Source of the DNA: Nymphaea colorata
Taxonomy: Eukaryota; Streptophyta; Magnoliopsida; Nymphaeales; Nymphaeaceae
Reading direction: 5' to 3'
Length of the DNA: 64,000 nucleotides
NCBI RefSeq assembly: GCF_008831285.2
Contig: NC_045143.1
Location: 13,381,214 to 13,445,213 of the forward strand
Shown: in pieces, positions 3,884 through 62,984 of the stretch
Numbering within the stretch: the first letter of the stretch is position 1
How the letters are laid out: the number at the start of each line of letters is the position of its first letter
Position numbers and translations under genes: made by a program
Notes under the pieces: generated by a model
The model's database searches: none
What the model was told of the DNA's origin: nothing
The model's input: only the letters and a program-made list of their open reading frames with translations

Positions 3884-4074
3884 TGTAACAACCCAACCCG
3901 TTTCTGGGCTCGGGCCCCTGGTTCGGCAGATCCCAACCCACCTCCTAATAGTTTCGGTTCCGACCCTAAAAAGGCTAGAAAGAAGGACAACCATCTATTC
4001 AATAACCCTCTTTTATAAGCCATTGAAAATCCCTCACAATCTTCAATACAGGACTAGACATTTGGGGTGCTACA
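3884..4074 (-). repeat. TRIM LTR copy 1 (191 bp)
   Basis: Plus strand begins TGTAACAACCC and ends GGGGTGCTACA. Followed by the purine-tract complement ATCCACCCCCTTAAG at 4075-4089 and a PBS complement at 4137-4148. Confidence 0.85.
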
Positions 4075-4149
4075 ATCCACCCCCTTAAGACACACGCGTT
4101 TGCATGTGTGGGACCCTAGGTTCGAGTATTGAACCGACTCTGATACCAC

Positions 4150-4342
4150 TCTAACAACCTGACCCACTCCTAGGCTTGGGCCCCTGCTTCAGCAGATCCC
4201 AACCCACCCCCTAGCAATTTCTGTTCCAGACCCAAAAAAGACTAGGAACCAGGACAATCATTTCTTTCATGGCTCCCTTTATAAGTCCATGAAGATCCCT
4301 TACAATCTTCAATACGAGACTAAATTTTTTTGGGGCATTAGA
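4150..4342 (-). repeat. TRIM LTR copy 2 (central, most diverged ends)
   Basis: Shares TAACAACC.GACCC, the TCCCAACCCACC block and ACAATCTTCAATA with the outer copies. Its termini are mutated (TCTAAC start, CATTAGA end), so it probably no longer works as an LTR. Confidence 0.8.
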
Positions 4343-4418
4343 ATCCACCCCCCTTAAGGCACACATGTCTGCGCATGTGGGACCCTAGGTCTGGGTGCTG
4401 AACCGACTTTGATACCAC

Positions 4419-4609
4419 CATAACAACCCGACCCCTTTCTGGACTCGGGTCCTTGATTCGACGCAGCCCAACCCGCCCCCTAGCAGTTTCAGTTACGACC
4501 CTAAAAAGGCTAGGAACCAGGACAATCATATATTCAATAACCCTCTTTTATAAACCCTTGAAGATCCCTCACAATCTTCAATATGAGACTAAACATTTGG
4601 GGTGTTACA
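4419..4609 (-). repeat. TRIM LTR copy 3 (191 bp)
   Basis: Begins near CATAACAACCCGACCC and ends GGGGTGTTACA, directly followed by the target duplication ATATT. Same length as copy 1. Confidence 0.85.
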
Positions 4610-27646: not shown

Positions 27647-27750
27647 TCAACGGGACTGCATGGCCAACTCTTCAAAGACTTTCCCTCTATGTTCAAAGTT
27701 CTCAAATTCATCAAAGCTTGCACAACCTGGACTAAGCACAATTGCATCAC
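27647..27750 (-). CDS. murD: murD exon i, terminal, 104 nt, ends in TGA
   Basis: Completes a Gly codon, then [20 protein letters not shown] and ends ELAMQSR stop. The [15 protein letters not shown] block is the UDP-MurNAc-binding C-terminal signature of MurD. The acceptor is ATTTGCAG. The stop codon occupies 27647-27649. No clear polyadenylation site was identified below it. Confidence 0.95.
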
Positions 27751-30700
27751 CTGCAAATATTTCACAAATAATAAAAGAGGTAAAATCGATCTCACTAGAA
27801 AACAAAAAAAGGATCATTGGTGATTTTATACATTCAAGGAATTATAGTAGGAACCACATCATCGAAGTTCACATTAAAAGCACTGGCTTATGGGCTAAGT
27901 CACATGGGTACTTTAATAAGCTCTACCTACCCATGTCGCCGTACCCGTACCCAAAATAAGTACTTAGAACACTTGGATACTTTTAGATCCGAACTGCTTA
28001 ATTTCCTTACTTTTCATTCTATTCTTAGAGTTATTGTTCATTAACATATAATGTTTTTTACCCATATCACTTGTTTATTGAAATGTTGTTTTTATTTTGA
28101 TTTTTTTGTGTTATTTTGCATATATACATACATATATTTTGCCGTACCCCTGTACCCACATTTTTTAAAGTTATCGTGTCCGTACACGTATCTCCGTACC
28201 TATACCCAAACCGTACACGTACCCATGTGACTTAGCTTATGGGCCTTTAACACTGATTTCTTGAAAACCACAAATGTTCATCTTCATTATTTTTTTATCC
28301 TTTTGCCTCTTCCGCAGAGAATTTGGCCAGTCATTACAAGAATTAGATTACTGACATGATGCCAAACAAGTAATTCAAGCCAACATATTCGTCCTTGATG
28401 CCAAAAAATGCACCTTAAATGAATGTCAAACTTGAGAGATTGTTCCTCGTCCAGATGGTAAGAATGTAGTTGGCTCAAAATGAGTTTACAAACTCAAGTA
28501 TAAACCTGATGGAAGCATTGATAGATATAAAGCTCGACTTGTGGCTAGAGGCTTCACTCAGCAGTACGGAGAAGATTATGTTGAGACTTTCAATCCAGTC
28601 ATCAAGATGGGAACGATCTGGGTTATCATCTCTCTTGTCGTCTCATATGGATGGAATTATATCAGTTGGATGTAAAAGATGTTTTTCTTCATGGCTTTCT
28701 AAAGGAAGAAGTATACATGAAACAACCTCCAGGTTATGCTACCAATGATCCAGCCAAATGGGTGTGCAAATTACAAAAATCACTGTATGGGCTTAAGCAA
28801 GCATCTCACTCATGGTTCGATAGATTTTCTCTTCATATACAACAGGCTAGTTTTCTCAGAAGTTCACTTGATCATTCCTTATTTATCTATCATTCAAGTG
28901 AAATTACCACTTGGCTACTCATATATGTAGATGACATAGTTCTTACTGGAAATTCTTCATGTCATATATCTCATGTTAAGAAGGTATTGCAACAAGAATT
29001 CAAGATGAAGGATCTCGATGAACTACGGTATTTGTTGGGAGTTGAGCTTGATAGAAAAGGTGACACATTAACCCTTACGCAACATAAATATACTCTTGAT
29101 ATTTTGGATAGAGTAGGTATGACAAATTGCAAGCCCATAAATACTTCTAGTGTTCTCAGCACAAAATTGAATGCCTCGGACGGGAGTGATGCATACTCAA
29201 ATCCTAGTTTCTATCGGAGTATAGTTGGCATGCTGCCATATCTCACTTTTACACGCCCAGACATAGTATATGCAGTGAATCAAGTATCTCAGTTATGCAC
29301 GCACCCACAGAGGGGCATATGGATGCTACCAAACGCATTTTGCGTTATCTTAAGGCTACTCTTGAGAATGGACTCGTTTACACAAAACAGTCAACTGCTT
29401 TGCATGGCCACAATGTTTTCACCTACACTGATGCAGATTTGGTAGGTGATCTAGACGATAGACGATCAGTTTTCGATTATTGTCTCTTCCTTGATTCCAA
29501 CCTTATTTGTTGGAGTAGCAAGAAACAACGTGCAGTAGCCAGATCTAGCACTGAGGTAGAATACAAGGCAATGGCTGCAGGCACAGCTGAAGTTTCATGG
29601 TTACGCCATCTGCTTGGAAAACTCTCCCTTCCCATTGCTCAATCATCTTTATTTTGTGACAACCAAAGTGCGATCAAGATTGTCTCCAATCATGTTCTAC
29701 ATAATCGTACTAAGCATATAGAAATTGATCAACACTTCATTCGTCAAAAGGTTGTGGAAGACGAGATTGTTCCCACTTATATGGCCACATCTCAACAAGT
29801 GGTTGATCTTTTTACCAAGGGACTCACAGGGCACCATTTTTGGGAATTGAAGAACAAGTTGTGCATGATCCAGCCCCATGCACTACTTAAGGGGGGCTGC
29901 TAAGATTGTACGATATGGATCGGGTCACCCAGACCTGACCCATTTGATTCACACGCCCATACATCATGGGCAGTGGCATACTTGTAATTCTTAATGTTGT
30001 TTTGTGTATTTGGTTTTCTATCCTAAATTGTGATTAGTATATAATGATAACTAGAGGCAGACGTCAAGGTTGCTACCCTCTTTCTTCTCTCTCTTTCTTG
30101 CACGTGCGGTCTATTTCTCTCTTCCTCCTCTTGCATCTAACTTCATCTGGTGGTTTGGTTCAAAATGTTACACTCCTCTTTCATGAGAATTAAATCTTCC
30201 TTGTCCTTGCCCATATGTCTCCCAGGTTACTACTAGGGAGACTGTGATTGATTGTGACGGAGTCACTTCAGAAAATCCTTTCAAAGTCATCTTGTACTAA
30301 ATCAGCTTGGTTCATAGCTCTTTGAACATCAGAAGATTGAGCAAGCACAACAGTGAAGTGACAATCATATTGTGATGGGACCCCAATCCACTCAAAGTTT
30401 GTTCCACCATGTCTATGTCATTCACTATGCACCCAATACTAGCAAAAGCTGGCCTGACAGTTTTCATCTTATTCATGCACTCCATACTGCTCATAGAGTC
30501 TTTCTCCAGTAACCGAAACACTCTCTTAAGAAACACCATTCTAGTATGTCAGACCTGACCACATGTCTGAACCAATCTATCGCACAGCTGAATAGCAGAA
30601 AATTCCATCACGGAATGGTTATAAGCACTTCCTATGACAGAGTGGAAGTTCTGTCACATGGGTGCAGGTTGCAGGTGGTGGTGCGGAAGCGGATGCAGGT

Positions 30701-33700
30701 GTGGTGTGAATATTTTCAGAAAAAAATTGGGTGTGGTTATGGCAAAAGTATACATATATATATAATTATATAAATATATATATATATATAAATATATAAA
30801 ATGTTATATACTATATTTTTTCGCTGAAAATTTTATTAAAAGGACATTTTGGTCCATTTTTGAAATTTTATGGTGAATAATTTTTCAATAGTGGCAGACC
30901 TTAAAAGGACAACAGGCCTGTCATCCTTCAGGCATGTGCGTGACCCAAGAAGACTGAAAAAGAGAGGAGAAAACAAGGGAAAGGAATTTCTTGCCAAAAA
31001 ATGGGTGGATGAGGTCAACGGCACCACAAGCGTGCTGACTGCATCAGTTTGCATGATGGAGCTGCAACCATGTCCGCATCCACACCTGCATCATCTTGAT
31101 GTCAGTGTGGGTCCTTTTTTGAAGAATCCATGTGACATAGAGTAGAAGTAATGCATGCAACCAAGAATAATCTTTTTTTTTTTTCAACAAAGATACTGCA
31201 GATTTTTGACATACACAATTGAGGTCACCTTTCAGAAAGGGATTCCAGACTATGGCAGAAAAATGGAAGACATCAGATCTGCAGAAGAATTCAGAACTAA
31301 AAAGAATATGGCAGGTTTGAGACTTGTAAACACAGAATACTTTGAAAAGGACGTGAGATCTGAAAAGAAATTAAAAACTGATGTTGGCCATGAAGATTTA
31401 AGAAAGAATGTCAGATCTAATTCAGATTTAAAGGATGTCAGATCTGAAATCGGGAACATTTGATCTGATTCAGAAAAAAATGATGTCAGATACAAAGAAG
31501 GAGAAGTTAGATCTGATTTGGCAAAGAGTATGTTAGATCTGATTTCTATCTCAGATCTGGAGCAACAAAGAATAACCTTTAAAAGAAGAAAAAAAAATAA
31601 ATATACAAAAGAAAAAAAATAGAGAAGTTTAGGCTGATATGAGGGAAAACTTTAACTTGGATGAAGAAACCTTGACCTACCTGGTCATTCCTTCCAGAGA
31701 AAGCTCAACAGCCAATCATGGAACTTGGCTCTCATACTTGTTAGTTTTTGACACCACAGATCCTTCACAGAAGAGAAGGCCACATGGAAGAAAAGGGCTG
31801 CCCCTCAACTGTGAAAGGAGCAAATCAAACCACAAATTCCATTGACTGCTATATGGGTATGATCGTAAGACATTAGGGTGCATTCAGGTACAAGCATAAA
31901 TTGATAAATTACAATATGCTATTAATAACATGACCCAGATCAATGACATCTTTTTATGGACATGCGGATGAAGCAGTTCCAACACTGGACTGATCTCCCT
32001 TTCTAATATATGACTGTGGCATTAAAGACTGAAACACCTTTGAATTGAGACCTGGATCCATTAAGGACCCAGATCCACAAATCAAGTCATATGGATTATA
32101 AACATGTTTCAATGAAGGGAACCTCCCCTCTTTTGGGATAGGTTTCCCTTGACAAAGACATTTTTTTCACCTGTGTTCTCTAGTGCATTTCTACTTTGTG
32201 TGATATTGTGCTTGGTGTACTTGTGTGTTGCTCAAGCTCCTTGAAAGTGGTTTAACAAGTCAATTATTGAGCGTTGTTTTATGACTTTGAGTGCTGCTTT
32301 TTACATATACTCCAGTCGAAGACATGATTTAGCCATAGGAATGGGACATCAGAAATTATACACGAAAAATTAAGCAAGCTAGCAGATATGCAGCAGAAAG
32401 CCTGAATGTGTCCAACCCCAACCATGGAAAATTCACATACCAGATTTAGCAATGTCCCGTGCAAGACTCACAGCATCTACCAGACATTTAACTGTAGTAC
32501 AAGGAATAGAAAGCCCAGCACTCAGCAGTGCCTTCCAAATCATTTCCCCAGAAGCTCCGAACTGCCATCAATTGTAGCCATCAGAAGCATGTTAGTATTT
32601 TAGAAACTTATTCCAGAAATATAATTTCATACATATACATGTAGATGTTTAACAACACATTCATGCATCCTGCGTGCATAGATTTAGGAAACATACTCAT
32701 TACTCACACATGTCTAGTTTCTGATGTTTCATAAAGTAGTTTTGCAAATCAGCTTCCTTAGGCATATCTCTTCAGTTTAGCAGACATCTATCATTTCAGC
32801 AGGAAGTTTGTATGTACCTTGTCATTTGGAACTTCTACTTAACTCCCATCAACTATGCAAAAACCACAGGTGCAAGTTACATTTTATAGACGACAGCTCA
32901 GTGTACTTTTAACATCCTTGTCATTTGAAACTTCTACTTAACTCCCAACAACTATGCAAACCACAGGTGCAAGTTACATTTTCTAGACGACAGCTGAGTG
33001 TACTTTTAACATCAAATATGATTTTCCAAGTCAAGAAATTTTGCTACATGGTAGACTGATGAACTTTTAAGTTAGAAAATTAATATGTACATGCAACCAT
33101 GACACAACCCACACTTCATTTTCTACTAAATATGTAAAGCTAGTTGAACAAAAAGAAAAAACTTAAGGCAGACCTAGGGGCTCCTAGTACATAATCATTC
33201 AAATTCACAAGTTCCAGTGGCAATGATGTATTCTCATAAAAAAAGCTGAATTCCGAGAAAATATATAGAAGTGGTGGACCATATTGAAGTGCTTCAAATA
33301 AAGTTGCTCCTACTCAAAGATCATGTAGATCACATGCATCAGGTCAAACTCTAAAAAAGCTCAAAAGTATTACAGGAAATGCAAAACTGAAAACCCCTAT
33401 AAGCACTGCTGTTCAAAGGAACTGCTATAAATAAAGCCACAACCTGACAAATCAAGGACTAAGATAGTCTCAATTAATATCTGTAAAAAACAGTGCATTA
33501 AAGCACAAACCGGAACTTAGTAATCTCGTAAGATAGAAGGGCACTACATACACGTAAAAGCAAAAATATTTCAGAAGAGACAATTCTTATAAAAACATTA
33601 TCAAAGAGAAGGTGGAACCCCTGGCTGTTGAACTAGCTTCAAGTTTCAACAATGAGATTGCTAGCCACTAGGGATAACCAACAGCTAGCAGTTTGGACAG

Positions 33701-36700
33701 AGGCTAAACCAGAAAGAAGCAGCAAATATAAAAGAAAATAATTGCTTGGGCATGGTTTTTAGTGATCGAATGCTCCTTTTGTGATGGTTTTGAGCAACAC
33801 AAAATAAAAAAATAAAAAATAAAGGGCACCTAGCCGGCTGATTTCAATTTCTGTCTCTCTCTCTCTCTATACACACACATATATACATATATATAAATAT
33901 ATAAAATGACAATCATGTTCAGATATTCTCTAAGTAACAACCACCATCCAACACGTGGCTGCCCATGTGCATATGTGTGTCTGTTGTCATGTGTGCTTGA
34001 GCAAGTGTGTCAGCGTGTTCGCATACCAAGTCATCAGCAGACACAGAAAATTAACTTTCACATATCTTACCAAGATGAATTGGTTAAGCAATTTTACAAG
34101 AGGCACATGGATAGTTGCTTCTCAAGCGAACCATCATCTTTTCACAATGTGAAATTTATAAGTTTCTGAAATTCCTTGTTGAAGCCACCATGGTATTCCA
34201 GATGTTGTAATGGAGCCAGAAAGGCCCCTAGAATAGTGACACGTGTACATAATTGGGTAAGCAAGTGAGAAGTAAAATGTATGCAATGAAGAAAAGTTCT
34301 TATTGCAGAGATATTCAAGAAGCATCTATATAACATGTAAGGCTTCATAACTTACCGTGATTACAGCCTTGTGGCATTTAAGAGGCTCTGCCAGCTTTTC
34401 AAAACCACTGGAGCCATTGTTCTCAGCATTTTGCTAACATTAGACAAACAGTCTAAGCATCAAAATCAGAATCATTAACATGTAAATCTGTTCATGCAAC
34501 AAAGATGATAAATTCAGCAGAATCATAGATAAATATCACAATCTCTTGTTCTCCCCAAGAAACCTATTGAAAAGCCATATAAGTGAAAATTTCAAAAAAA
34601 AAATTAGAAGATTGAAAACTATGTCAAGTTGGAAGTTTGTGCAAGTCCTAGGTTCTACAAAATTTTTTGCATGTCAGGGCACTAGAATACATATCGAGGC
34701 ATAAGTGTAGATCATAAAACTCTATTAAACTGCTGCTGAAATTTGTCCCTTCCTTTCAATATCATTACAATTTAGCCTATTACAGGGGTGAATACCAAAC
34801 CCATACAAAAAAAAAGTGCCAAAATTCCCCAAAGGGATATTTACAGTATAACACCCTCTGGTTGGAGTCTTGGTCCAAATCAACAGTGGGACATGCACAT
34901 CAATCCAAGAGCATGAATTGGAAATGCACCCACATCCATAGGCTGACCTTCTGCCTGGCCGTATAATTTCAATGGCCTTTAAGAAATACTTCCTCATGCA
35001 CCAACAAAACTTCCTGACATGACTTTTCTAATCCAAGATTGCATGATGTCAGCTGTAAAAATGTCCACAAATAGGCACAAAAAACAGTCCAAATAAATAG
35101 AAGAAAATCATACTAGAATTGAATCACCAAGAACACTCAAGAAATATGCACTAAGTCAAAAAATGCACAAGTAAAGAAAACAATAATTCAATTAATAAAA
35201 TGCTTAGGGAAGAACAAGAAAAACAAGAGAAGATACTCCCAAGTCCCCATGTGTACAGCCAGCAAGGGGTTGATCTAGCTGTCGGCTGGACCCTCCAAAT
35301 GAAGCTGTGCGGAGGAGCCAAACTGGCAAGTCAACCATGGTCAAGGATAGCTTGACCAAAATAAAAAGCCAAAAAAACAATACAGAAAAATAAATACCAT
35401 AGAAAAGAAATAAAAATAAAATAAATATTTAACCTATTAATATACTATACTCTTGTTGTGCGATAACCAGAGCTCCATAAAACATAGCCTATTCCATGGC
35501 TCTGCTACAGCATGCTGCTCAATTTCTCTAGCCTCCACTGGCTCTCTCTACAGTCTCTCAACCTCCTGCTGAGATGCCTCTAGTGTCGGGGTGAAAACCT
35601 AGAGATCTCAGCATCTCAGTCTCTGCTCACCTGATCTCGAGTTTGTATCTCCCTGTAGAAGTCTCTCAGCTTCTATAGCAGCTGCTAATATTGTCTTCTT
35701 GACCTACCCTATTGGTGAAGGAAGCTTATGATGCTATCCCAAGGCAAATGAGCACTTCGACCTGTTTAGAGCATAATCTGGATCATGCCACATCACTTAT
35801 TCTACTATACCTTAAGAAGCCTACCGGATGTTCCGAAACAGGCAGCTGGCATACCACCTGTAGAAGATGGTGAAGCTTGAATTGTGGCTTCTTCCTCTAT
35901 TTTCTCTTCTGCCTCTAAATCTGCATCTCTAACAAGAGCAGGAAAAGAAATACATGCTCCTCTGAAAGCAGACACTTTAAACATTCAATTTCTACCTAAA
36001 TGCAAAAAAACCATGAGATGCAGAAATGAAGAGTGACAGGTCACTATAAAGATTACAGAGATGTAAGATTATATTTGTAGCACAAGGGCATTCACAGGAA
36101 TATAAAATAGATTATGACGAGACTTTGCTCTCGTAACGAGAATGACTAATATTGGAACCCTAGTGGTCATAACCTCCTTTCGAAAAAAGTTCAATTTATC
36201 ACGTATTGCAAAAAATGTGTTTCTTATTGGTGATCTTAGGAAAGTGAGTGACATTTATACTCCCCCAAAGTATATTACTAAACAATAGAAAGTTTTGAAA
36301 CTCAAAAAGAACTTTATGGCTTAAAACAAGCTCCAAAGTCTTGGTATGACAAGTTCAGTAAAGCACTTTTTTTCTTCGATATAAAACATGTGTCCATGAA
36401 ACTGCTATGTTTGTTAAAGAAACTAGGTAAAAAAATAAAACTTTGGTTGCTATATGTAAATATGATGATACAAGGAAAAAGATGGAGTGAATCAAATTGC
36501 CCAAATGCTTAAGGAGAGTTTTGAGATGTTAGATGAGACATTTCTTCAAGATAGAAGTTGCCAGTTACCAAATTAGATTTTGCTTTAAATGAAACAGGTT
36601 GCAGGTCAGAATCACAAGTGTTGACATATGTTGTATTTGGGACACCTGTCTGGATCTGGACCCGATCCAGTGTGTTACTGTTATGGAAACCCTAAATTCT

Positions 36701-54700: not shown

Positions 54701-57700
54701 ACTAATCTTGTAATTTGTTATCTTACCCTAATTCTCATTTAACGTGAGAATAGGGCAGACTATTGAGACAACGAATAGAACTTTCTCTCTCTGTCTCTCT
54801 CTCGCTCTCAACCTCTTCTCCTCTCTCTCATCTTGCTTCCAGCAACATGGTATCAGAGCCCAACCCTTCTTGGGACTGACACCTATTTCTCTCCCTCGCC
54901 ATCTTACCCATCTTCTTCCTCTTCTTCTGTTATCGTTGGGGATTTTGTGGGTCAAACTTGTGGATCATGCGTATTGGGGCTCAATCTAGGGTTTTCTTAA
55001 CAAAAGATGAAAACCCTAGGTCGATGCCTCGTTGAAGTGGACGTGGTTGCAAAATCTGATAAACGTGGGAACAACAAAGTATTCTTCACTGTCGCTAGTA
55101 ACTTCTGCTAAGCGTGGAAACAGCAGAGTCTTCCTCCTTGTCGTTGGTAACTTCTGCTAAGCGTGGGAACAGCAGTAAGTGTTAAAAGTGATTTTTTATC
55201 ATGTCTGTGGAATATATTATCAGTCTTAAAGTTGTGGCGTGGCGTGGATGTTAGGACTGATACATGTGGAGTTAAACAAGGCATGGAAAAGATACCTACG
55301 ATGACCTGCTTCTTGTCTGCCGTGAACCAGTTTTCTACATTATAAAGTGAAATTTTATTTTCAGCAGAAAGCTTCTTATCTATTGTTTACTGCTTTGACT
55401 ACTGCTACGTGTTCTACTTACTGCTCACTACTACTACATATTCTGCTTACTGTTACGTGTTCTACTTGCTGCTCAAGGCTGCTGCATATTCTACTTACTG
55501 CTGCATATTATAGTCAGATTGTGTGGTTCAGTTGTTTGTGTCTCAAGATGGATCTGGAACAGCAATCTAATATGACAGACAGCCCTAAGATCGAGTCTCA
55601 TACTGAATACAAAGTTGTTGGGAATCCATTCTTCTATGGTTCGACTGTGAAATTAGATGGTCACAACTATAAAATTTAGTCGCGTATGTTCATGATGTCT
55701 GTAGTAGGACATTAGAAAGACCATATCATTAAAGAAGATGAACCAAATGTTAAAACAGGAAAGTATACCACATGGAAAGAAGATAATAGTATTGTTATGT
55801 CGTGGATTATGAACAGTGTGTAGTCTGATGTCGGTCCTACTCTTACTTACTATACTTACTATACAATTGCTAAACACATGTGGACTTTTTTGAAACAGAT
55901 TCAAAAATTTTACAAGTTGAGAAGGAGTTACTCAAACTACAGCAAGGTGACTTGGAATTATCTCAATACTTTGCTTCAGTTAAAGCAGCGTATGAACAAT
56001 TGAAGGCTCTTCGACCTCCATGTCGGCACGTTACAAGACTCATTTTGAGTAGACAATGGTGACAAAGTTCTTGGCTGGTTTGTCCCCTAAATATGAGGTA
56101 GCTAAAGTTCAAATGCTTACTAGCGCAAAAATTCCAGATCTTGCTAAGGCATATAATAGACTGAGTAGATTGGCTATATCTCTCTCTCAGCCCCAAAGTG
56201 AGTCTCTTGCTGCTGCCTTAGCCGTGTCTGGAGGACGTAGACATGGTACAACGCGAAGAGGCTCAGGTCGTGGTGTAGGGGGGAGAGGGAGATTTCAGTG
56301 TACATACTGTGACAAATTAGGACATTTAGAAGATAGATGTTGAGACAAACATGGTCATCCAGCTCCTAGTTTCCATGGAAGAGGATTCAGTACCTCAGGT
56401 GGTAGAAGGAGATTCACTTCTCAAATTCCTGTAGGGTTTGCTTGAGCTACTACATCACTTGGAGAGACTCCTGATAGTTCCTTGACGACTACTGATAGCT
56501 CCACGGTGATTATGAGCAAGGTAGAGTATGATCAGCTTATGGCTCAGCGATCTCTCCCTGCCTCGACGCCTGTTACTGCATCCTCGGTTGTGGTCGATTC
56601 TTCTTTGTCTGTTGGTAGTACTTCCCATGAACCAGGTATTGTGTGGATTATTGATTTTGAGGCTTCGAAACATTTCTACAGTCAGCCTCACTCATTTACC
56701 TTATTGCATCGTTTTGCACAACCTCAACATGTTAGACTTGCCAATGGGAAACTTTCTCCTATTATAAGAGTTTGGGATGTGAAACTCTCGAATTCTATAT
56801 CTCTTTCCAATGTTTTATACACTCCAGAATTTCCTACTAACCTTTTGTCTGTTACTCAGTTGACAAAGGATTTGCAATGTAGAGCCATATTTGATCCTGG
56901 TTCATGTATTTTTCAGGACTTGCAAAATGGGAAGACGATTGGTGGTGGCCATGAGCGCAAAGGAGTTTACCTTTGGTCGAAACCAATAGAGGGTGTGGCA
57001 TTTATGGCTCCATCTAAGCCTACCCCGTATCAGTGGCATCTCCGACTCGGCCATCCTTCATTATCCAAGCTTTGTGGTGTCCTCCCTAATATTTACTTAT
57101 ATGAGTGATTCCAGTGTGAGGCCTGTCAATTGGGCAAACACACTAGAAGTAATTTTTCTTTCAGTATTAGTCCGTCGAGTCATGCAGTTTTTGATCTCAT
57201 TCGTGTTGATTTTTGGGGGCCGAGCCGGGTTGTAAGCGGGGCCAAGTTTAGGTATTACCTTGTTACTGTTGACGATTTTTCTCGTCTTAGTTGGGTGTTC
57301 TTGTTAAAAGAGAGGTTTGAAGTTATTTGTATTCTTTAAAATTTCATTATTGAAATAAAGACTCAGTTTGGTTCCATTGTCAAAAACATTCGCACTGATA
57401 ATGCTTGTGAGTTCAAATCCAATACATTGTTGCAATTTTATACCAAATATGGAATTTGCCTTCAATTTACTTGTCCCCACACTTCTCAACAAAACGGTAT
57501 TGTTGAACGTAAACATCGTCAGCTACTAGATATGGCTCGTACTCTCATGATACATAGTTGTGTTCCAACCCAGTTTTGGGGTGATGTCATACTCACTTCA
57601 TGTTACCTAATTAACCGTTTTTCGTCCTCGTCCATTGGCAATCAAATTCCTACTCAAGTGATCTATCCAGATAGACCCTTGTTTTCCCTTCCACCCAAAG

Positions 57701-60700
57701 TCTTTGGGTGTACTTGTTTTGTTCACATCCTTGGTACTAATAGGGACAAACTTGGTGTACAATCGATTAAATGTATTTTCATTGGTTATCCAAAACACCA
57801 AAATGGTTATATCTGTTTTGACTCTCATACTCATAAGCAGTACATCAGTGCAGATGTTACATTTTTTAGTCATGTCCTTATTTCAAGTCTACTCCATCAC
57901 TATCAGACAAGTTGATGTCTATTCCTTTACCTATACCACCAGTTCCCTTGCAGTATATTCTGTGTGCTACCGATTCACCCCCTAGTGTCAACAGATTTCA
58001 TGATCCCCCACGGGTATACACCCGTCGACGTGCTTCTACAGTTCTACTCATGACTGCCAACTAGTTGCTTCTCAGGATGTAAGTATACCTGACCTCACTG
58101 CTCCTCCTCCACAGGATGCTTCTAGAATATCGTTGGACTTACTGATTGCCTTGCACAAAGGCAAACGACAGTGTACTCTGCATCTTATATCTCGATTTGC
58201 TTCTACTAACAGCAGCTTGTGTCATCCTTGTCAGTGCATTCAATTCCTTCTAGTTACCTCCAAGCATTACTTGACCCAAATGGCGACAAGCTATGCAGGA
58301 TGAGATGGAGACACTACTGCAACGTGGGACATGGGAATTGGTTGATCCCCTTCTAGGTGTGATGTCGTGGGCTCCAAATGGGTTTTTACCATAAAGTATT
58401 TATCTAATGGTTCAGTGGAACGATACAAAGCTCGTCTTGTCGCAAAAGGTTATACTCAAACTTTTGGTGTCGATTTCTTTGAGACTTTTTCTCCTGTGGC
58501 CAAGATGGGCACCATACGTCTTATTGTGTCAATTGTTGTACATTATGATTGACCCTTATATTAGTTGGATGTCAAAAATGCTTTCTTGTATGGGGAACTT
58601 GATGAGACGGTTTAAATGCACCAGCCTCCTGGCTTTGAACGTCAGGGGGAGTGTAGTAAGGTGTGCAGGTTGAGAAAAGAAATATATGGCTTGAAACAAA
58701 GTCCTCGTGCTTGGTTTCACAAATTCTCAGAAGTTGTGCTAGAATGTGTCTTTAAGAGGTCTCAACTAGACCATTCGTTGTTTATCAAGAAATGATCGAG
58801 AGGTATAGTTGTGCTAGTGGTGTATGTTGATGACATTGTTTTGATAGGTGAATGTGAACAGGAGGTAGCTCAGACAAAGAAATTTCTACAAAAACACTTT
58901 GTTACCAAAGATCTTGGCCAGCTGCGGTTCTTCCTTGGCATTGAAGTTGCTCGTAGTAAGGAAGGTGTGGTGTTACCACAAAGGAAGTATGTTCTTGATC
59001 TTTTACAAGACACATGGATGCTAGGAGCTAAACCTACAACTCTTCCTATGAACCCAAGAGTACATCTATATGATGATGACCTCGGAAGAGATAGCTTCAC
59101 AAGCCTACAGTTCGTTGATTGGTAAGCTTCTTTATGTGACAATAACTCGACCAGATATTAGCTTTGCTATGAGCAAATTAAGCCAATTCATGGAAAAACC
59201 ACAAAATAACAGGGCTGCCACCTGTATTGTCAATAATCTTGTATTTCATGAGAGGGCAAAACACATTGAAGTAGATTGTCATTACATTCGTGATATGGTT
59301 CAAGAGGGAATGATCTCCACTATAGATGAAGCCTCTGAAAATCAAGTCGTTGATATCTTCACTAAAGCCTTGCCTATTTCAGAGTTTTCTAGATGGTGTG
59401 ACAAGTTGAGCATGATTAACATCTTACATCTATGCTCCAGCTTGAGGGGAGTGTTGAATAATATTTGTGTTAGGTGGTTTTTTTAATATTTAAGAGTTTT
59501 AGGAACAACTCTTTACAAATAAATGTTCTAGTAGTAGACTAATCTTGTCATTTGTTGTCTTACCCTAATTCTCATTTAACGTGAGAATAGGCAGACTATT
59601 GAGACAATGAATAGAACTCTCTCTCTCTCTCAACCTCTTCTCCTCTCTTTCGTCTTGCTTCCAGCAACAGATAGTGTATAGCATCAGACAACAGATGCCA
59701 ATGACCTAGTGCCAAGCCATTGGAAAAATACTAGCTATGCGTTGGGTTCATTCGGGTGAAAGGCAAATGAGAATGATGGATTAAAAATTCAACTATTGTG
59801 ACAATATATTTTCTAGAAGGATTAATAGAATGCAGCACTATTTTACAAAGACACACGATAATGTGGCTTCATGCAATGGTAGTCCATATAAGCTATTGCA
59901 ACCATTTGTGTGTCCAAGTACCACACGGACCAGTGGAGTATCTGGCCCAAATAGGCCAGACCCAAGCATAACAGCGGGCCCAACGGGCCGATATTTGTTG
60001 GGCAGAGCCTGGCCCAAGTCCAAGAAGTTAACAGGCTGGGTCCAGGAACTACATTCGCAACAATGATGCCTATTGGGCCAAATAATTTTTTTTTTTTTTC
60101 ATTTTTCATTGTTCAATTCTTAAACAGCAGCCCACTTTCTATAACAATTTTTTGGTTGACACTCTCATTATTTTTCAGTACAGGATAAAAGGTGAGCCTT
60201 TCTTTAGTCTTTCTTCTTTAGTCTTTCTTTAGACCGTTTTTATAAAAGTGAAAACATTAACACATTGTTCAATGAATCAGGGCTGGCAACTTTATACTAA
60301 AGTCTTTAGTCCTTTACTGATGGTGTGAGAATGGCCGCCCTTGGAGAGCTGTCATATAAGGGGCATGGATTGAATAAACAATAAATTGGCCTAGTTTGGT
60401 TTGTAAAAAAATAAATAAAATAAATAAAAAAACATTAACGGGCCAAGTACTAGGCAGTGGGTATGGCCTCACACCCAATAAAGCCCAGGCCCGGCTCGGC
60501 TCATAGGCTCGATTAGTAATGGGCTAGGCAAACAGGTCCAGCAATTATCCAATTGGGCCCACCGGGCCCATATGACAATTAAGCCAGGCCGGGTCAGGCT
60601 GAGCTCGGCAATGTTTGGATATGCTTAAGGTTTTATAGAAAAAGAGGATTCAAAAATAAATAAATGAGGTAGATAGGGGCTATGGCGAACCATAGGAAGT

Positions 60701-62984
60701 CGAGGATGGAGATGAATGCATTAAAGAGGGTGAGGATGTTGATGCTGGCCTAAGATTAAATGTGGCTAGCTCGAGAGCCAAAGGGAAAGGCATCCTGCAT
60801 GAAGAGTAAAATTTCTAGCAGGAAGAGAAGAAGTGTGCCAACTAGTAGGCATGGTCATCGTGGTAGAGTAGTAGTGCAAGTATAGTATTGGATTTATCAA
60901 AAGTTTTTTTTCCTTCATATATTGCTCCAAGTGCTCAGCGCAACATCTGTGCTGCTATAGCCTCAAAAGATATGATAGAACAAGCATATATAGAAGTTGG
61001 GAGATGGTTTTTACAATGCATGTATTCCCTTCAATGCAACTAATTCATTTCATTTCCAGGCTATGGAAAATGTGATACTTCTATAGAGTCTGGATTTAAA
61101 ATGTCTTCATATCATCAGCTAAGAGGCAAAATTCCTGATGCAATAGCAAAAAAAGTAATAAAATATTGTGAAAAATTGAAATTGAGCTAGAATGAAACAG
61201 GCGGCAGCATTATGGAAGATGACGGACCAATACAAGGTTAAGACTTAAGAATACTTCTGAACTTTCTAGTTCATTGCCCTAAAGGTACTATATTCTTAAA
61301 ATCACTTGATATATCTAATGTACCTAAGACTGTTGATATTTTGTGCAATATTTTTGATAATGTTGTACAAGAAGTTAGGTCTGCAAATTTTTTACAGTTA
61401 TTATGGATAATGCTGCAAATTCTAGAGTTGTAGCCTTGCAGGAGAATTGTTGTTTCAAATTTTTTTAAAGTTCATTACTGTCATGCATAAATCTCATGCT
61501 TCAAGATCTTGGTGAACATATATGAGATGAGTTTAACAATGCCAAGGGATCACAAATTTTTTTTATAATCATGTACACATATTGAGTCTCATGATTGGTA
61601 TCATCTTAGCTTTTGTCAACTCAGTTTCTTGTGTAATCAAGCTTTAAGTCTTTCACCAAAGGCCTGAATTTTCATCTTTTGTCATATTGTTTGTACTTCT
61701 ATCACATGTAGTCATGTACAACATGTTTCGACTGATACAGTTTCTTGTTTACCTTTGACCTCACATCCCTTTTCCTCTTCATCTATTTTTAGCCCATAAG
61801 ATTTATTTCTTCAGACATCTAGCTTGTGTTTCTTGAAAATTACCTGGCACTTGGTGTATTGGGATCTAGAAATATTTTGTAATGAATGTACCGGAAAACC
61901 TTCTTTGGATTTGCCCAAGAAGGCAAGAACTTTGGGCTTCATTTATTTTTGTCTGGGATGGCTTGCTTTGAGTTTGGTGCATTTCATGTAATAGGTTTGT
62001 ATGGCCCTGGAATATGGGTGTCTGATCTAACGGCTAACCGGAAAAGTACAGCCTGTAAAGTGTAAACCCTTCATGGGGCATGGAGGGTTTTGATCCTTTT
62101 GTTCTAGGAGGGAATAGCTTCTCACATACTGCAGCAGGCACCTTGAGAATATTAGCAGGTCTATTCCATCTTATTGCATGACCAGACATGGACAACATAT
62201 AGGTAAATTATCAATTTACAATAATAAAACAAAATGAAAACCAAATCTTGTATGAATCACACAGACCAACAGAAATTAACCAAATCTTGTATGAATCACA
62301 CAGACCAACAGAAATTAACTGCAAAACCATGTATTACGTTGATCTATAGGTATCTTCATACCAGCTGGAAGAACAGCAAGATCGCAATCAGTCATATGAC
62401 AGAATAATCGGCATTTTGTATAGGCATAATTCCACATAGTCTTGTGTCTCTCTAAGTGATCAGGAGTGAGATTTAATATGACTGCCACCTGGATTCCACA
62501 GAAAAGGTAAGCTGAATGATAAAATCACGATAAGAAAGGGAAAGAAACTTGCTTCAGATTCGGTCATCACATACAGAGGGATGCAAGTACTTATTCGGAA
62601 TCTCCAACTGATAGCTGCTCACCTCCACAACTGCAACCTAAGTATCGGGGTAATTATGTAAGGCTAAAATTATAAAAGAAATAATTAAATAGTGGTTTCA
62701 TTTATCATTATAGATTATACCACATCCAAAGAATGGTTACCAGGTCAACTATGGTCAATGTCTACAAGTCATTAAGCTTCTTACCAATATTCTGGAGATA
62801 ATTGTTATATACCAAAAATCTGAAAAACTAAGGCCTTATGTGTAAGGATAAAAGTGAGTGTGAAGATAATTCAACTTACCTGGAATTGGGATTCACCAGA
62901 TCCCATACACTGTAAAGCAGCCTTTGAAAGTGGATTTCCAAAATTTCCTCCAACAAAAGCCTTGATGCCAGAATGCTGAAGTAG
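27647..62984 (-). CDS. murD: MurD-like UDP-N-acetylmuramoyl-L-alanine:D-glutamate ligase, 3' nine exons (5' end outside window)
   Basis: Family role: MurD adds D-glutamate to UDP-MurNAc-L-Ala with ATP, the second amino-acid step of the peptidoglycan stem peptide. In plants it is expected in the plastid stroma. Minus-strand exons, 5' to 3': 62984-62880, 62637-62575, 62488-62362, 53852-53770, 53681-53465, 43438-43311, 34433-34356, 32561-32441, 27750-27647. Phases join without a break to 341 codons plus TGA (1026 nt). Visible motifs in order: [37 protein letters not shown] (Lys equivalent to the carbamylated K198 of E. coli MurD), [54 protein letters not shown]. These follow the order of bacterial MurD (about 440 aa). 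The N domain, P-loop (TGTNGKS-type) and any transit peptide lie beyond base 64000. MurD is preferred over MurC, MurE or MurF because of the DSKATN and CASFDEF blocks. Introns are 242, 86, 8509, 88, 10026, 8877, 1794 and 4690 bp. Expression is not shown by the sequence. Confidence 0.93.
27895..28235. mobile_element. 341-bp MITE, TIR CTAAGTCACATGGGTAC, 8-bp TSD, in the last murD intron
   Basis: Perfect 17-bp terminal inverted repeats (CTAAGTCACATGGGTAC and its reverse complement) flanked by the exact duplication CTTATGGG (27887-27894 and 28236-28243). The 8-bp duplication points to hAT mobilisation. Subterminal regions repeat GTACCCGTACCC-like words. A diverged relative in opposite orientation lies near 43.8-44.16 kb in another murD intron. 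Confidence 0.87.
28440..29903 (+). pseudogene. Copia reverse transcriptase and RNase H (nearly complete, frameshifted)
   Basis: Early part across frames: [20 protein letters not shown]-like. Then one long frame (28651-29445) with [33 protein letters not shown], the catalytic [29 protein letters not shown] and [16 protein letters not shown] frameshift near 29300 moves to the RNase H frame with [49 protein letters not shown] and [14 protein letters not shown]. The catalytic D, E and D are kept. Upstream stops and the missing 5' half make it inactive. Confidence 0.85.
29898..30172 (+). repeat. Probable 3' LTR of the truncated copia element
   Basis: Starts TGCTAAGATTG right after the purine tract AAGGGGGGC and includes a CT-rich 3' part near 30080-30150. 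The end at GTTACA is a guess from the TG...CA rule. No 5' LTR partner. Confidence 0.5.
30312..30539 (-). pseudogene. Copia gag remnant (minus strand)
   Basis: The 75-codon frame reads [19 protein letters not shown], then [20 protein letters not shown], resembling the copia gag helix region (Y...(I/M)K.....A.IG.....E......GL...Y). It lies opposite to and right of the truncated copia element, so it is a separate old fragment. Confidence 0.5.
30540..32440. other. Rest of the last murD intron: no gene recognised
   Basis: Contains a TA-rich patch (30750-30800), inverted GC-richer blocks near 30655-30710 and 31065-31110 (both with GATGCAGGTGTGG-like words, perhaps MITE ends), and the AGATCTGA-rich stretch listed separately. 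Confidence 0.4.
31266..31560. repeat. Degenerate repeat region rich in AGATCTGA words
   Basis: The word AGATCTGA, or one-base variants such as AGATCTAA or AGATCTGC, recurs at uneven 20-60 bp spacing across about 295 bp, several times preceded by TGTC. The longest frame (31155-31463) is a by-product of this repetition. Function unknown. Confidence 0.6.
32441..32561 (-). CDS. murD: murD exon h, 121 nt, phase 0 to 1
   Basis: Encodes [20 protein letters not shown], then [13 protein letters not shown] plus one base, the C-terminal Rossmann-like domain of MurD. The acceptor is TGGCAG and the donor is GTATGT. No internal stops. Confidence 0.93.
32817..33013. repeat. Tandem duplication, unit about 99 bp, in murD intron g-h
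   Basis: Units 32817-32915 and 32916-33013 both run from CCTTGTCATTTG through TTCTACTTAACTCCCA to CTTTTAACATC, with a few substitutions and a short indel. Confidence 0.9.
33014..34355. other. murD intron g-h remainder: no gene recognised
   Basis: AT-rich intron sequence with a CT/CA/TA-rich microsatellite patch at about 33850-33905. No protein-like ORFs. Confidence 0.5.
34356..34433 (-). CDS. murD: murD exon g, 78 nt, phase 0 to 0
   Basis: Encodes [20 protein letters not shown] then HKAVIT, matching the MurD segment after the LLGG loop (GF..L). The acceptor is TGTTAG and the donor is GTAAGT. Although isolated by 8.9 kb and 1.8 kb of intron, its reading frame is open and in phase with both neighbours. 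Confidence 0.92.
34434..36284. other. murD intron f-g, right of exon g: no gene recognised
   Basis: No ORF with recognisable domains. The stretch at about 35230-35900 has a different, CT-richer composition than its flanks and may be an old repeat. Confidence 0.4.
36285..36610 (+). pseudogene. Old copia RT fragment next to the complete copia element
   Basis: Reads [20 protein letters not shown] then KFSKALFF, the [17 protein letters not shown] motif of copia RT, followed by degenerate YVNMM (from YVDDM). It is interrupted by the insertion at 36619. No clear continuation was found right of 41770. Confidence 0.7.
36619..36745 (+). repeat. 5' LTR of the 36.6-kb copia, truncated
   Basis: The first about 127 bp match the 3' LTR (TGTTGACATATG through GAATTCTTAGAGAGAGT). 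After that the match stops. The second half of the LTR and the TGGTATCAGAGC primer site are absent. Confidence 0.75.
37190..38240 (+). pseudogene. Copia gag with zinc knuckle (36.6-kb element)
   Basis: Reads [20 protein letters not shown] and [15 protein letters not shown], then a stop at about 37529. It continues [39 protein letters not shown] and the CCHC knuckle [14 protein letters not shown] near 37960-38000. A further TAG (near 38240) replaces the Trp before IVDSGAT, the protease active site. The following HHM residues are lost through a 7-bp deletion relative to the 46-kb element. Confidence 0.85.
38560..39600 (+). pseudogene. Copia integrase (36.6-kb element)
   Basis: Zinc-finger end [15 protein letters not shown], core [23 protein letters not shown] and [14 protein letters not shown] (D, D, E positions). 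The preceding region (about 38440-38560) carries a small imperfect duplication of CTTTTATCTG...AGCAAGATTACATAGGA, and a 27-bp in-frame duplication (KLDPKSINV then KLDPMSIKG) occurs near 39340-39385. A frame change follows near 39430-39480. Confidence 0.85.
39476..41480 (+). pseudogene. Copia reverse transcriptase and RNase H (36.6-kb element)
   Basis: [42 protein letters not shown] and [20 protein letters not shown], then a stop and frameshift near 40393-40430. It resumes with [28 protein letters not shown] and [20 protein letters not shown]. RNase H at about 41035-41480 includes [15 protein letters not shown] and [14 protein letters not shown], then another frameshift. Ends with the purine tract TTGAGAGGGAG before the LTR. 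Confidence 0.85.
41526..41765 (+). repeat. 3' LTR of the 36.6-kb copia (240 bp)
   Basis: Starts CGTTGACATATG (first base mutated from T) and ends TTCTACA just before the duplication ACAAG. Same length as the LTRs of the 46-kb relative. Confidence 0.85.
41771..43310. other. murD intron f-g, left of exon f: no gene; possible solo LTR
   Basis: No protein-like ORF. The stretch at about 42560-42870 has a TATA-like GTATAAATAGTA after a CT-rich stretch and a long pyrimidine-rich 3' part, which would fit a solo LTR, but no TG...CA ends or duplication could be fixed. Confidence 0.35.
43311..43438 (-). CDS. murD: murD exon f, 128 nt, phase 1 to 0
   Basis: Completes a Val codon, then [20 protein letters not shown] and on to [15 protein letters not shown] and the LLGG..K loop are diagnostic of MurD. 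The acceptor is TGACAG and the donor is GTGAAA after GCAAAG. It lies between two long introns (10.0 and 8.9 kb) filled by copia elements. Confidence 0.95.
43805..44160. mobile_element. Diverged relative of the 27.9-kb MITE, opposite orientation
   Basis: Shares, in reverse complement, the GGGTACAGGGATACGGCA block, the run of A-rich words around AAATAACACAAAAAAA, CATTATATGTTAATGAACAATAACTCTA and the GATATGGGTAC ends with the 27895-28235 MITE. The termini are mutated and no target duplication is visible. Confidence 0.65.
44410..46141 (-). mobile_element. Older copia element (minus strand), 3' part
   Basis: Reading the minus strand from 46141 down: [58 protein letters not shown] and [10 protein letters not shown] (RT). 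Then [35 protein letters not shown] and [13 protein letters not shown] (RNase H). A purine tract (CTTGAGGGGAAG) lies near 44620-44635 with an LTR starting TGTTGGAAAATAAG below it. Related to the 54.6-kb copia. Its 5' part continues beyond the young insertion at 51468. Confidence 0.78.
46142..46381 (-). repeat. 3' LTR of the young copia (240 bp)
   Basis: One mismatch against the 5' LTR at 51228-51467. Adjacent to purine tract and target duplication GTTCT (46137-46141). Confidence 0.95.
46376..48830 (-). pseudogene. Young copia integrase C-terminus, reverse transcriptase and RNase H
   Basis: About 800 codons open. It begins in the integrase ([18 protein letters not shown], then the copia C-terminal domain). 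RT motifs: [53 protein letters not shown], the catalytic [14 protein letters not shown] and [13 protein letters not shown]. RNase [49 protein letters not shown] and [13 protein letters not shown]. Catalytic Asp/Glu residues are kept. The stop codon lies inside the 3' LTR. Protein-level integrity fits recent activity of the family. Confidence 0.93.
48790..50220 (-). pseudogene. Young copia gag C-terminus, protease and integrase
   Basis: In frame with the preceding gag: [20 protein letters not shown], zinc knuckle [14 protein letters not shown] near 49980-49935, protease active site [14 protein letters not shown] near 49695, integrase zinc finger HERLGHL then CDVCQFAKH, core [10 protein letters not shown] and FRSDNAREY. 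The frame is lost near 48825-48835 in a run of C (TACCCCCCTC), where one base is missing compared with the 36.6-kb element. The true frame continues as the RT ORF. Confidence 0.9.
50221..50727 (-). pseudogene. Young copia gag, N-terminal part, ends at a premature TAG
   Basis: Starts at [18 protein letters not shown] (start codon 50727-50725). Continues [34 protein letters not shown] and [19 protein letters not shown], ending RCPHD then TAG at 50223-50221. Translation continues in the same frame beyond the stop. The related copy at 37.7 kb has Gln at this place, so a C-to-T change of a CAG/CAA codon is the likely cause. An upstream ATG at 50760 in frame is possible, but the MADSS start is preferred. 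Confidence 0.88.
50790..51180 (-). other. CpG-dense, GC-rich 5' leader of the young copia
   Basis: Between PBS and gag start lies about 390 bp of CGGCGG/GACGTCGGCGTCGG-type short repeats, in sharp contrast to the AT-rich surroundings. Long ORFs here on both strands (Ser/Gly/Ala-rich) are by-products of the composition. The many undecayed CpGs fit a recent insertion. Confidence 0.8.
51216..51227 (-). promoter_or_regulatory. Primer-binding site TGGTATCAGAGC of the young copia
   Basis: Twelve bases complementary to the 3' end of initiator-Met tRNA, the common copia primer, directly adjoining the 5' LTR. Confidence 0.92.
51228..51467 (-). repeat. 5' LTR of the young copia (240 bp)
   Basis: On the minus strand runs from TGTTGACGGG to GTTTCTACA. 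Differs from the 3' LTR by one base (ACAAAGG here versus ACAGAGG, plus-strand reading). Followed by target duplication GTTCT at 51468-51472. Confidence 0.95.
51473..52594 (-). mobile_element. Older copia element (minus strand), 5' part, rearranged
   Basis: Directly right of the young insertion the minus strand reads [17 protein letters not shown], then a deletion, then [16 protein letters not shown] in a shifted frame. The last motif continues at 46141, which proves the nested insertion. Further right, 52434-52132 holds a possible gag start ([20 protein letters not shown]) and 52594-52583 the complement of a TGGTATCAGAGC primer site. The 51940-52100 stretch resembles the LTR at 44410-44618. 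The integrase and most of gag are missing. Confidence 0.6.
52583..52594 (-). promoter_or_regulatory. Copia primer-binding site (TGGTATCAGAGC), older element
   Basis: An exact 12-base match on the minus strand. The adjoining LTR start is not clean (TATAGG on the plus strand), so the ownership of this site is uncertain. Confidence 0.6.
52600..53464. other. murD intron e-f, next to exon e: no gene recognised
   Basis: AT-rich, may include LTR sequence of the older copia in its first 200 bp. No protein-like ORF except exon e, which starts at 53465. Confidence 0.45.
53465..53681 (-). CDS. murD: murD exon e, 217 nt, phase 0 to 1 (largest visible exon)
   Basis: Encodes [13 protein letters not shown], then [19 protein letters not shown], and ends [13 protein letters not shown] plus one base. 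It covers the end of the central domain (NHNFQNA, equivalent to GRHNLLNA of E. coli) and the PHR motif at the C-domain border. The acceptor is taken as GCAG just before ATG GTG. An AAG acceptor 9 nt upstream in the same frame would add three residues. The donor is GTGAAT. Confidence 0.92.
53770..53852 (-). CDS. murD: murD exon d, 83 nt, phase 1 to 0, GC donor
   Basis: Encodes (D)[19 protein letters not shown] and IGDLPGLK, matching the loop between the central domain's two halves. The acceptor is AAATAG. The donor is AAG followed by GCAAGT, a canonical GC-AG intron donor. It is separated from exon c by an 8.5-kb intron that holds a copia element and a dead hAT gene. Confidence 0.87.
53853..54609. 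other. murD intron c-d, next to exon d: no feature
   Basis: AT-rich intron sequence between exon d and the copia target site. Confidence 0.5.
54615..54847 (+). repeat. 5' LTR of the 54.6-kb copia (233 bp)
   Basis: TGTTGAATAAT to CCAGCAACA. Ends in a CT-rich stretch longer than in the 3' copy. Confidence 0.93.
54848..54859 (+). promoter_or_regulatory. Primer-binding site TGGTATCAGAGC
   Basis: Directly follows the 5' LTR. Complementary to initiator-Met tRNA 3' end. Confidence 0.93.
55547..56440 (+). pseudogene. Copia gag with zinc knuckle (54.6-kb element)
   Basis: Starts [20 protein letters not shown], then [10 protein letters not shown] and a stop at 55679. It continues in broken frames ([30 protein letters not shown]) to [18 protein letters not shown] and the CCHC knuckle [14 protein letters not shown] near 56300-56340, after an Arg/Gly-rich stretch. 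UBN2-type gag. Several stops. Confidence 0.85.
56482..57915 (+). pseudogene. Copia protease remnant and integrase (54.6-kb element)
   Basis: The protease site reads [11 protein letters not shown] where D-S-G-A is expected, so the catalytic Ser-Gly is lost. The integrase follows: [34 protein letters not shown], the second Asp in [12 protein letters not shown] and [20 protein letters not shown] (third position Glu), then [15 protein letters not shown]. Stops at about 57107 and 57339. Confidence 0.87.
58300..59110 (+). pseudogene. Copia reverse transcriptase (54.6-kb element)
   Basis: Reads [40 protein letters not shown], then in shifted frames the QLDV.NAFL and [13 protein letters not shown] region, [14 protein letters not shown], a stop, and [16 protein letters not shown] with [19 protein letters not shown] is intact. 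It closely resembles the older minus-strand copia at 44.4-46.1 kb ([12 protein letters not shown], then AWFHK.SEV), so both belong to one family. Confidence 0.87.
59120..59445 (+). pseudogene. Copia RNase H with internal deletion (54.6-kb element)
   Basis: Reads [20 protein letters not shown], then jumps near 59212 to [20 protein letters not shown] and [12 protein letters not shown], ending [14 protein letters not shown]. The catalytic YSDADW and SS.EAEY blocks are missing, so RNase H is inactive by deletion. Confidence 0.82.
59452..59669 (+). repeat. 3' LTR of the 54.6-kb copia (218 bp)
   Basis: Pairs with 54615-54847. About ten differences are visible, mostly in the CT-rich end. Followed by target duplication GATAG. 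Confidence 0.93.
59675..60955. other. Intron sequence with GGCCC-rich MITE-like blocks
   Basis: No gene. Blocks at about 59925-60060 and 60430-60600 are rich in GGCCCA/GGGCC words like the arms of the 23463 MITE and may be decayed hAT ends around the transposase remnant to the right. No clean TIR or duplication was found. Confidence 0.4.
60960..61475 (+). pseudogene. hAT-family transposase remnant (DUF659-like)
   Basis: Frames give [20 protein letters not shown], then after a frameshift [18 protein letters not shown] and [13 protein letters not shown], stop, [16 protein letters not shown], stop, and [19 protein letters not shown] with [15 protein letters not shown]. Another frameshift leads to [12 protein letters not shown]. 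This is the DUF659 segment of plant hAT transposases (PFN...NS..F.PM, then G..(I/M)..DGW.D, F(L/V)..(C/S)P.G..FL.S.D, TDNA.N). At least two stops and two frameshifts. The catalytic parts beyond are not visible. Confidence 0.78.
61476..62241. other. murD intron c-d, next to exon c: no feature recognised
   Basis: No protein-like ORF in any frame. Confidence 0.5.
62242..62319. repeat. Perfect 39-bp tandem duplication close to murD exon c
   Basis: 62242-62280 and 62281-62319 are identical (CAAATCTTGTATGAATC...AAATTAAC). It lies 43 bp below the exon c donor, inside the intron. Confidence 0.97.
62362..62488 (-). CDS. murD: murD exon c, 127 nt, phase 0 to 1
   Basis: Begins [18 protein letters not shown] and includes [10 protein letters not shown], ending in LAVLPA plus one base. 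The PDHLERH and TKCR motifs are the Mg-binding histidine region and the carbamylated-lysine region. The donor is taken as GTATGA after GCTG because this gives the right phase for exon d. A GTAATA further on is the alternative and would break the phase. Confidence 0.9.
62575..62637 (-). CDS. murD: murD exon b, 63 nt, phase 0 to 0
   Basis: Encodes [20 protein letters not shown] plus S. The VEVSSYQLE block is the central-domain strand carrying the metal-binding glutamate of Mur ligases. The acceptor is ACTTAG and the donor is GTATGT. A GTGAGC lies inside the exon (within GAG GTG AGC) but must be read as coding to keep this motif. Confidence 0.93.
62880..62984 (-). CDS. murD: murD exon a (first visible), 105 nt, phase 0 to 0
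   Basis: Encodes [20 protein letters not shown] and continues to GESQFQ. This is the MurD segment just after the ATP P-loop helix. The acceptor CAG lies at 62987-62985 and the donor is GTAAGT after CCAATTCCAG. The preceding exon, which should carry the P-loop, is not within 62985-64000. Confidence 0.92.

Follow-up and report, generated by a model that had tools for sequence, protein, structure and literature searches.

A nuclear, intron-rich gene for a predicted plastid MurD in the water lily Nymphaea colorata

Peptidoglycan genes in plants

Full or nearly full sets of plastid peptidoglycan genes have been described in moss, Selaginella, Picea abies, Asparagus and Citrus (the parts of PMC4815162 and PMC12681378 used here), and the early Mur enzymes of these plants are likewise matched in the genome of Nymphaea colorata. 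The same part of PMC4815162 describes several vascular plants in which the pathway lacks PBP, and reports that MurE, Ddl, MraY and MurG occur across the Viridiplantae. Asparagus and Citrus are angiosperms with nine Mur genes and without a bifunctional PBP, as described in the sections of PMC12681378 on which we draw; those sections also note transglycosylase-only genes in angiosperms and give the bifunctional class A PBP as known from no angiosperm, and the transglycosylase without a transpeptidase that is reported for angiosperms is the same as what we found in Nymphaea. Peptidoglycan-like labelling round the chloroplasts of Arabidopsis and Nicotiana is described in the portion of PMC9954125 used here, in which plant Mur homologues are held to be seemingly not cyanobacterial. 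Unlike the plants listed above, Nymphaea belongs to Nymphaeales, an early-branching angiosperm order that is placed near the angiosperm root in the part of PMC6872490 cited here, which also describes the loss of peptidoglycan synthesis within the angiosperms.

The published nuclear assembly of N. colorata comprises 409 Mb in 14 pseudo-chromosomes according to the main text of the genome paper (PMC7015852), in which the word peptidoglycan is absent. The sequence set analysed here includes, beyond C1-C14 (12.6-44.0 Mb), the large contigs C15 (7.3 Mb) and C16 (1.3 Mb); the others among the 20 contigs inspected are smaller. Our literature search, in which papers were judged mostly by title, found no paper on the subject of water-lily Mur genes; a survey that MacLeod and co-workers published in 2024, to which PMC12681378 refers, may include Nymphaea. 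Because Mur sets have already been reported for Asparagus and Citrus, and a pathway without PBP for several vascular plants, the novelty of a MurD in Nymphaea is moderate.

The MurD gene and its active site

Analysis of a 64,000-base window of contig C6 (C6:13381214-13445213), to which the next 40 kb past the window end were added for the 5' exons, revealed a MurD gene spread over ~39,000 bases, most of it non-coding and transposon DNA. The gene model was built from tblastn with E. coli MurD, combined with frame reading and splice phase. An earlier sequence-only reading of the window had proposed nine minus-strand exons joining to 341 codons, and this proved exact: the part of the gene inside the window consists of nine minus-strand exons from 62984 to 27647, with the same outer coordinates and the same 1026 nt, equal to 342 codons including the stop. 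Its estimate of about 1 kb of coding sequence in 35 kb also held, since these exons occupy 1026 of the 35338 bases between 27647 and 62984 (less than 3%). The same reading had proposed looking past position 64000 for the exon with the P-loop, and would have taken an absence of 5' exons as the sign of a pseudogene; four 5' exons are present 1.2-2.5 kb past the window end (C6:13446424-13447757), where they encode the P-loop as well as the Rossmann motif of the N-terminus, and a gene without its 5' exons is thereby ruled out. The complete model of 13 exons comprises 1518 nt, encoding 505 residues plus the stop codon with zero internal stops, and its 12 introns (11 GT-AG and one GC-AG) range from 76 to 10026 nt. 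Seven GT-AG introns and the GC-AG intron separate the nine exons of the window, and the phases of all eight fit.

All 13 exons lie on the minus strand. In numbering extended past 64000, exon 1 as first drawn (66544-66419) is followed by exon 2 (65798-65694), exon 3 (65617-65474) and exon 4 (65327-65211), and exons 2-4, outside the window, encode ILGLGASG and GTNGKST. The first exon inside the window, exon 5 (62880..62984), is in phase 0 and carries the GGN motif of the central domain; exon 6 (62575..62637) carries a motif as well, and the residues that correspond to His183 and Lys198 lie in exon 7 (62362..62488, reading ...YTKCRLF). Exon 8 (53770..53852) is followed by exon 9 (53465..53681, reading ...LPHRMQI). 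By sequence, exons 10-13 constitute the C-terminal domain of MurD, which starts in exon 10 (43311..43438, with NDSKATN at ~43400 and reading ...VVLLGGIAK) and continues through exon 11 (34356..34433), exon 12 (32441..32561) and exon 13 with the stop codon (27647..27750).

The sole GC-AG intron (53682-53769, 88 nt) begins where exon 8 ends, with AAG as the last bases of the exon and GCAAGT as the donor; gene finders that accept only GT donors easily miss such introns. When only GT donors were allowed and a motif filter was applied, exon 8 was not found; a wider scan revealed the exon, and a reading of the sequence the GC donor.

Support that is independent of the hand-picked exons came from an unassisted run of TIGR01087 against all six frames of the complete genome (407.8 Mb in 783 contigs), which gave five matches at E <= 0.001. 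One lay in a MurE gene on C12, and the other four were all on the minus strand of C6 and in order: 13446415-13446567, just outside the window (E 6.7e-6), and, inside it, 13443573-13443707 (exon 7 alone, E 9.5e-7), 13424521-13424640 (exon 10 alone, E 2.3e-4) and 13408875-13408967 (exon 13 alone, E 9.1e-8). Four ordered matches from an unassisted search argue that the exon series did not arise by chance. A single MurD locus was seen in the genome by this six-frame search, in which counts are lower bounds.

Because the remaining exons were placed by eye and script from MurD similarity and splice phase, the scores of the joined protein are partly selected for: the 505-residue protein scored 307.4 bits against the NCBIfam murD equivalog TIGR01087 (positions 1-439 of 441; cut-off 211.95), and the 341-residue part inside the window reached 215.1 bits by itself, also above the cut-off. 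Joining the two clearest pieces (~43400 and ~27730) into 83 residues gave a match to MurD in the PDB at E 2e-13 and to the NCBI murD model at 7.3e-20 (71.5 bits, under the whole-protein cut-off, as expected for a short piece). The second-best family of any kind for the full protein was the archaeal pseudomurein ligase pMurD2 (NF053647), at 109.2 bits and far under its cut-off of 550, and the runner-up among the bacterial Mur models was murE, at 80.3 bits. The best 11 rows of the PDB sequence search were all MurD, and BLASTP against E. coli gave 157 bits for MurD, 39.3 for MurF, 39.3 for MurC and 23.9 for MurE. By these comparisons, the gene is a MurD, closer to MurD than to MurC, MurE, MurF or FolC.

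All three MurD domains are present by sequence: the N-terminal Rossmann domain, the central ATPase domain with its P-loop and the C-terminal domain. End-to-end alignment with MurD of E. coli K-12 (b0088; PDB 2jff, 1e0d) gave 30.6% identity over 484 columns, with identity at 21 of 25 compared positions (position 10 of the 25 was mislabelled) and differences at the other four, L15A, T16S, T36R and L416F; the roles that we assign to the compared residues other than Lys198 are presumed. The 17 positions that were named as a core from among the 25 after the comparison are all identical (K115, S116, T117, N138, E157, H183, K198, N268, N271, H301, R302, D317, K319, T321, K348, S415 and F422). Lys198 is the carbamoylated lysine of E. 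coli MurD, as given in the part of PMC4816537 used here. With the murD cut-off passed and the 17 core residues kept, the earlier description of a MurD whose central and C-terminal motifs are intact is borne out. In contrast to its E. coli counterpart, the Nymphaea gene is eukaryotic, with at least 12 introns, and its protein has a basic N-terminal extension (some 25-70 residues, according to which 5' exon is used) and some additional segments, such as those that follow GGNFGNP and the GGIAK loop.

The length of the protein, ~500-545 residues, depends on the choice of 5' exon, for which we drew four minus-strand versions. Version 1, with exon 1 as first drawn, starts MICKIPCGCKVMVHRPRY. Version 2, in which 67349-67321 is joined to 66500, starts MRMFSTFLRRPRY, and version 3, in which 67556-67451 is joined to 66552, starts MMPAFAGRRNRCRVSSRRW; the frame is kept in both. 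Version 4, a longer start of version 3 at 67604, starts MEFNGRPSSIESAV... and contains two Glu. The stretches counted in versions 1-3 contain zero Asp or Glu and 5-13 Lys or Arg, and by residue composition these first three N-termini look like transit peptides.

Companion genes and the predicted pathway

Seven functions of peptidoglycan synthesis were matched in the genome: MurA, MurB, MurC, MurD, MurE, MraY and transglycosylase. An exon-by-exon model was built for MurD only, and the companion genes are exon-level matches. MurA gave five matches on C13, which cover model positions 2-416 minus ~279-287 and 336-360, none of them over the whole-protein cut-off. MurB on C11 reached 195.2 bits with its neighbours (cut-off 144.5), with one stop in each of two rows. 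The three MurC matches on C9 were all under the cut-off and one contained an inner stop, and more segments were found with E. coli MurC. MurE on C12 scored 387.7 bits for NF001126 (cut-off 373), and the four exon matches for MraY, on C11, all stayed under the whole-protein cut-off. The transglycosylase domain on C10 was represented by three matches, all over the cut-off and one with an inner stop, and was also matched with E. coli MrcA and MrcB. The inner stops in the MurB, MurC and transglycosylase rows are probably introns. The proposal, made from the window alone, that this plant retains the early precursor steps is strengthened by the exon-level matches to MurA, MurB, MurC and MurE, which make such retention more plausible.

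The transglycosylase belongs to a class A PBP-type gene on the plus strand (loci L053-L057, C10:17280738-17282137), downstream of which the transpeptidase domain was not found. A genome-wide search for the PF00905 transpeptidase gave zero candidates, a search that can miss intron-split domains and that found matches in 10 of 14 control genomes, and in a 40 kb stretch of C10 that extends from ~8.7 kb ahead of the gene to 30 kb beyond it, none of the first 40 tblastn rows showed a convincing segment of transpeptidase. The searches run thus returned no bifunctional class A PBP that combines transglycosylase and transpeptidase. Since the searches found no transpeptidase domain, a wall with normal cross-links is unlikely. 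MurF was not detected with TIGR01143, which matched MurE only, or with PF08245, which matched MurE and MurD only; the PF08245 search also missed MurC, so the negative result for MurF is weak. Overall, the gene set is similar to the 'pathway minus PBP' state that has been published for some angiosperms.

We propose, with considerable confidence, that the locus is a nuclear, intron-rich gene for a functional plastid MurD (UDP-N-acetylmuramoyl-L-alanine:D-glutamate ligase), predicted to make UDP-MurNAc-L-Ala-D-Glu. The gene would be transcribed and spliced across long, retrotransposon-filled introns, and the protein would be imported into plastids by means of its basic N-terminus, which resembles a transit peptide. 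There, in the step between those of MurC and MurE, MurD would add D-glutamate to UDP-MurNAc-L-Ala at the expense of ATP, and its product would be carried on to lipid II. Lipid II would perhaps be converted to glycan strands by the transglycosylase-only protein, without the cross-links of a penicillin-binding transpeptidase. Given the finding of a transglycosylase without a transpeptidase, the pathway may end in lipid II or in strands lacking the usual cross-links. More tentatively, as a possibility that we would not yet call probable, Nymphaea may have kept the precursor line together with a PBP of the transglycosylase type only, such that plastid glycan strands are polymerised without cross-links made by PBP transpeptidation.

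A different fate for the protein, which we regard as unlikely, is that MurD is still expressed but now serves another purpose, a change that has been proposed for angiosperm MurE in the plastid RNA polymerase complex, and that the peptidoglycan precursor is no longer made. The failure to find a transpeptidase and to detect MurF (by an insensitive test) is in keeping with such a change, but the catalytic positions are conserved, including the counterpart of the carbamoylated lysine, and MurA, MurB and MurC are matched in the same genome. We know of no use for MurA, MurB and MurC other than the peptidoglycan pathway.

Retrotransposon-filled introns and remaining alternatives

Retrotransposon sequence, in the form of reverse transcriptase or other pol domains, was found in four of the eight MurD introns inside the window, which agrees with the transposon setting first described for these exons. 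Nine open frames were scanned, and seven matched a retrotransposon domain while two matched nothing. The intron elements are labelled Copia-type from their RVT_2 domain. Intron 7 contains a plus-strand Copia-type element (54613..59669) with outer repeats 90% alike and open frames in pieces. The Copia-type LTR retrotransposon of intron 9 (46142..51467) is on the minus strand, the same orientation as the MurD gene, and has pol in more than one frame; its LTRs (46142-46381 and 51228-51467) are alike at 239 of 240 positions, which indicates a recent arrival. A plus-strand Copia-type element in intron 10 (36617..41750), with open frames in pieces, is related to that of intron 9 (74-79% over two long aligned parts), and intron 12 contains a plus-strand fragment of a Copia-type reverse transcriptase (28651..29903), in which 28651-29445 matches RVT_2 and 29295-29903 matched nothing. 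Elsewhere in the window, a 269-base unit is repeated in tandem in 2.7 copies (3886-4602). A tRNA scan in the bacterial setting found zero genes, and an Rfam search of the window gave zero matches.

Such introns raise the question of a recently dying gene, whose reading frame survives while the growth of its introns has reduced or abolished useful expression. The three longest introns (8509, 10026 and 8877 nt), one of 10.0 kb and two others of more than 8.5 kb, and the very young retrotransposon in intron 9 fit this account, which we nevertheless judge to be improbable, slightly more so than a repurposed protein: long introns full of transposons are ordinary in plants, the 13 exons have kept their splice sites and contain neither a frameshift nor an internal stop, all 17 core residues of the active site are in place, and other early genes of the pathway are matched in the genome.

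Mistaken identity, in which another enzyme of the Mur-ligase fold (MurC, MurE, MurF or folylpolyglutamate synthase) was taken for MurD, is very improbable; although the central domain is common to all of these enzymes and secondary matches to MurE, MurF and MurC were seen, MurD leads murE by 227 bits (307.4 versus 80.3) and pMurD2 by 198, and the genome has MurC and MurE at loci of their own. The 20 families listed at E <= 0.001 do not include FolC, and the best match to the protein, which the sequence-only reading had proposed to compare with these other ligases, is MurD and not MurC, MurE or MurF. An identity as FolC or as a different Mur ligase is refuted by the family profile scores. It is scarcely credible that the locus entered the assembly as bacterial contamination or through a recent insertion of bacterial DNA, even though MurD is a bacterial family. 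This origin is refuted by the 12 spliceosomal introns, of which four contain retrotransposon sequence; the contig that carries them measures 26.3 Mb, and among the seven bacterial MurDs in the comparison the most similar is 42.4% identical.

That closest bacterial MurD, L016, lies on a 9 kb contig of a MAG labelled Rhodobacterales (JAACDH010000173.1), a label that we took as given although the contig might belong elsewhere; its identity of 42.4% extends over 465 columns, and the other six bacterial MurDs compared are 26-33% identical. A pattern-limited scan, in which 50 stretches matched the pattern and six loci were confirmed, is uninformative on nearest ancestry.

In sum, a gene with less than 3% coding content over its span in the window could be read correctly from raw sequence. 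Plastid peptidoglycan in flowering plants is debated, and N. colorata is a species suited to testing the matter. A complete-looking MurD, together with the matches to MurA, MurB, MurC, MurE and MraY, helps to show where on the angiosperm tree the cross-linking transpeptidase was lost. If Nymphaea does keep the precursor line with a transglycosylase-type PBP only, the position of Nymphaeales near the root of the flowering plants would mean that the loss of the transpeptidase is older than, and separate from, the later loss of MurA-MurD seen, for example, in Arabidopsis.
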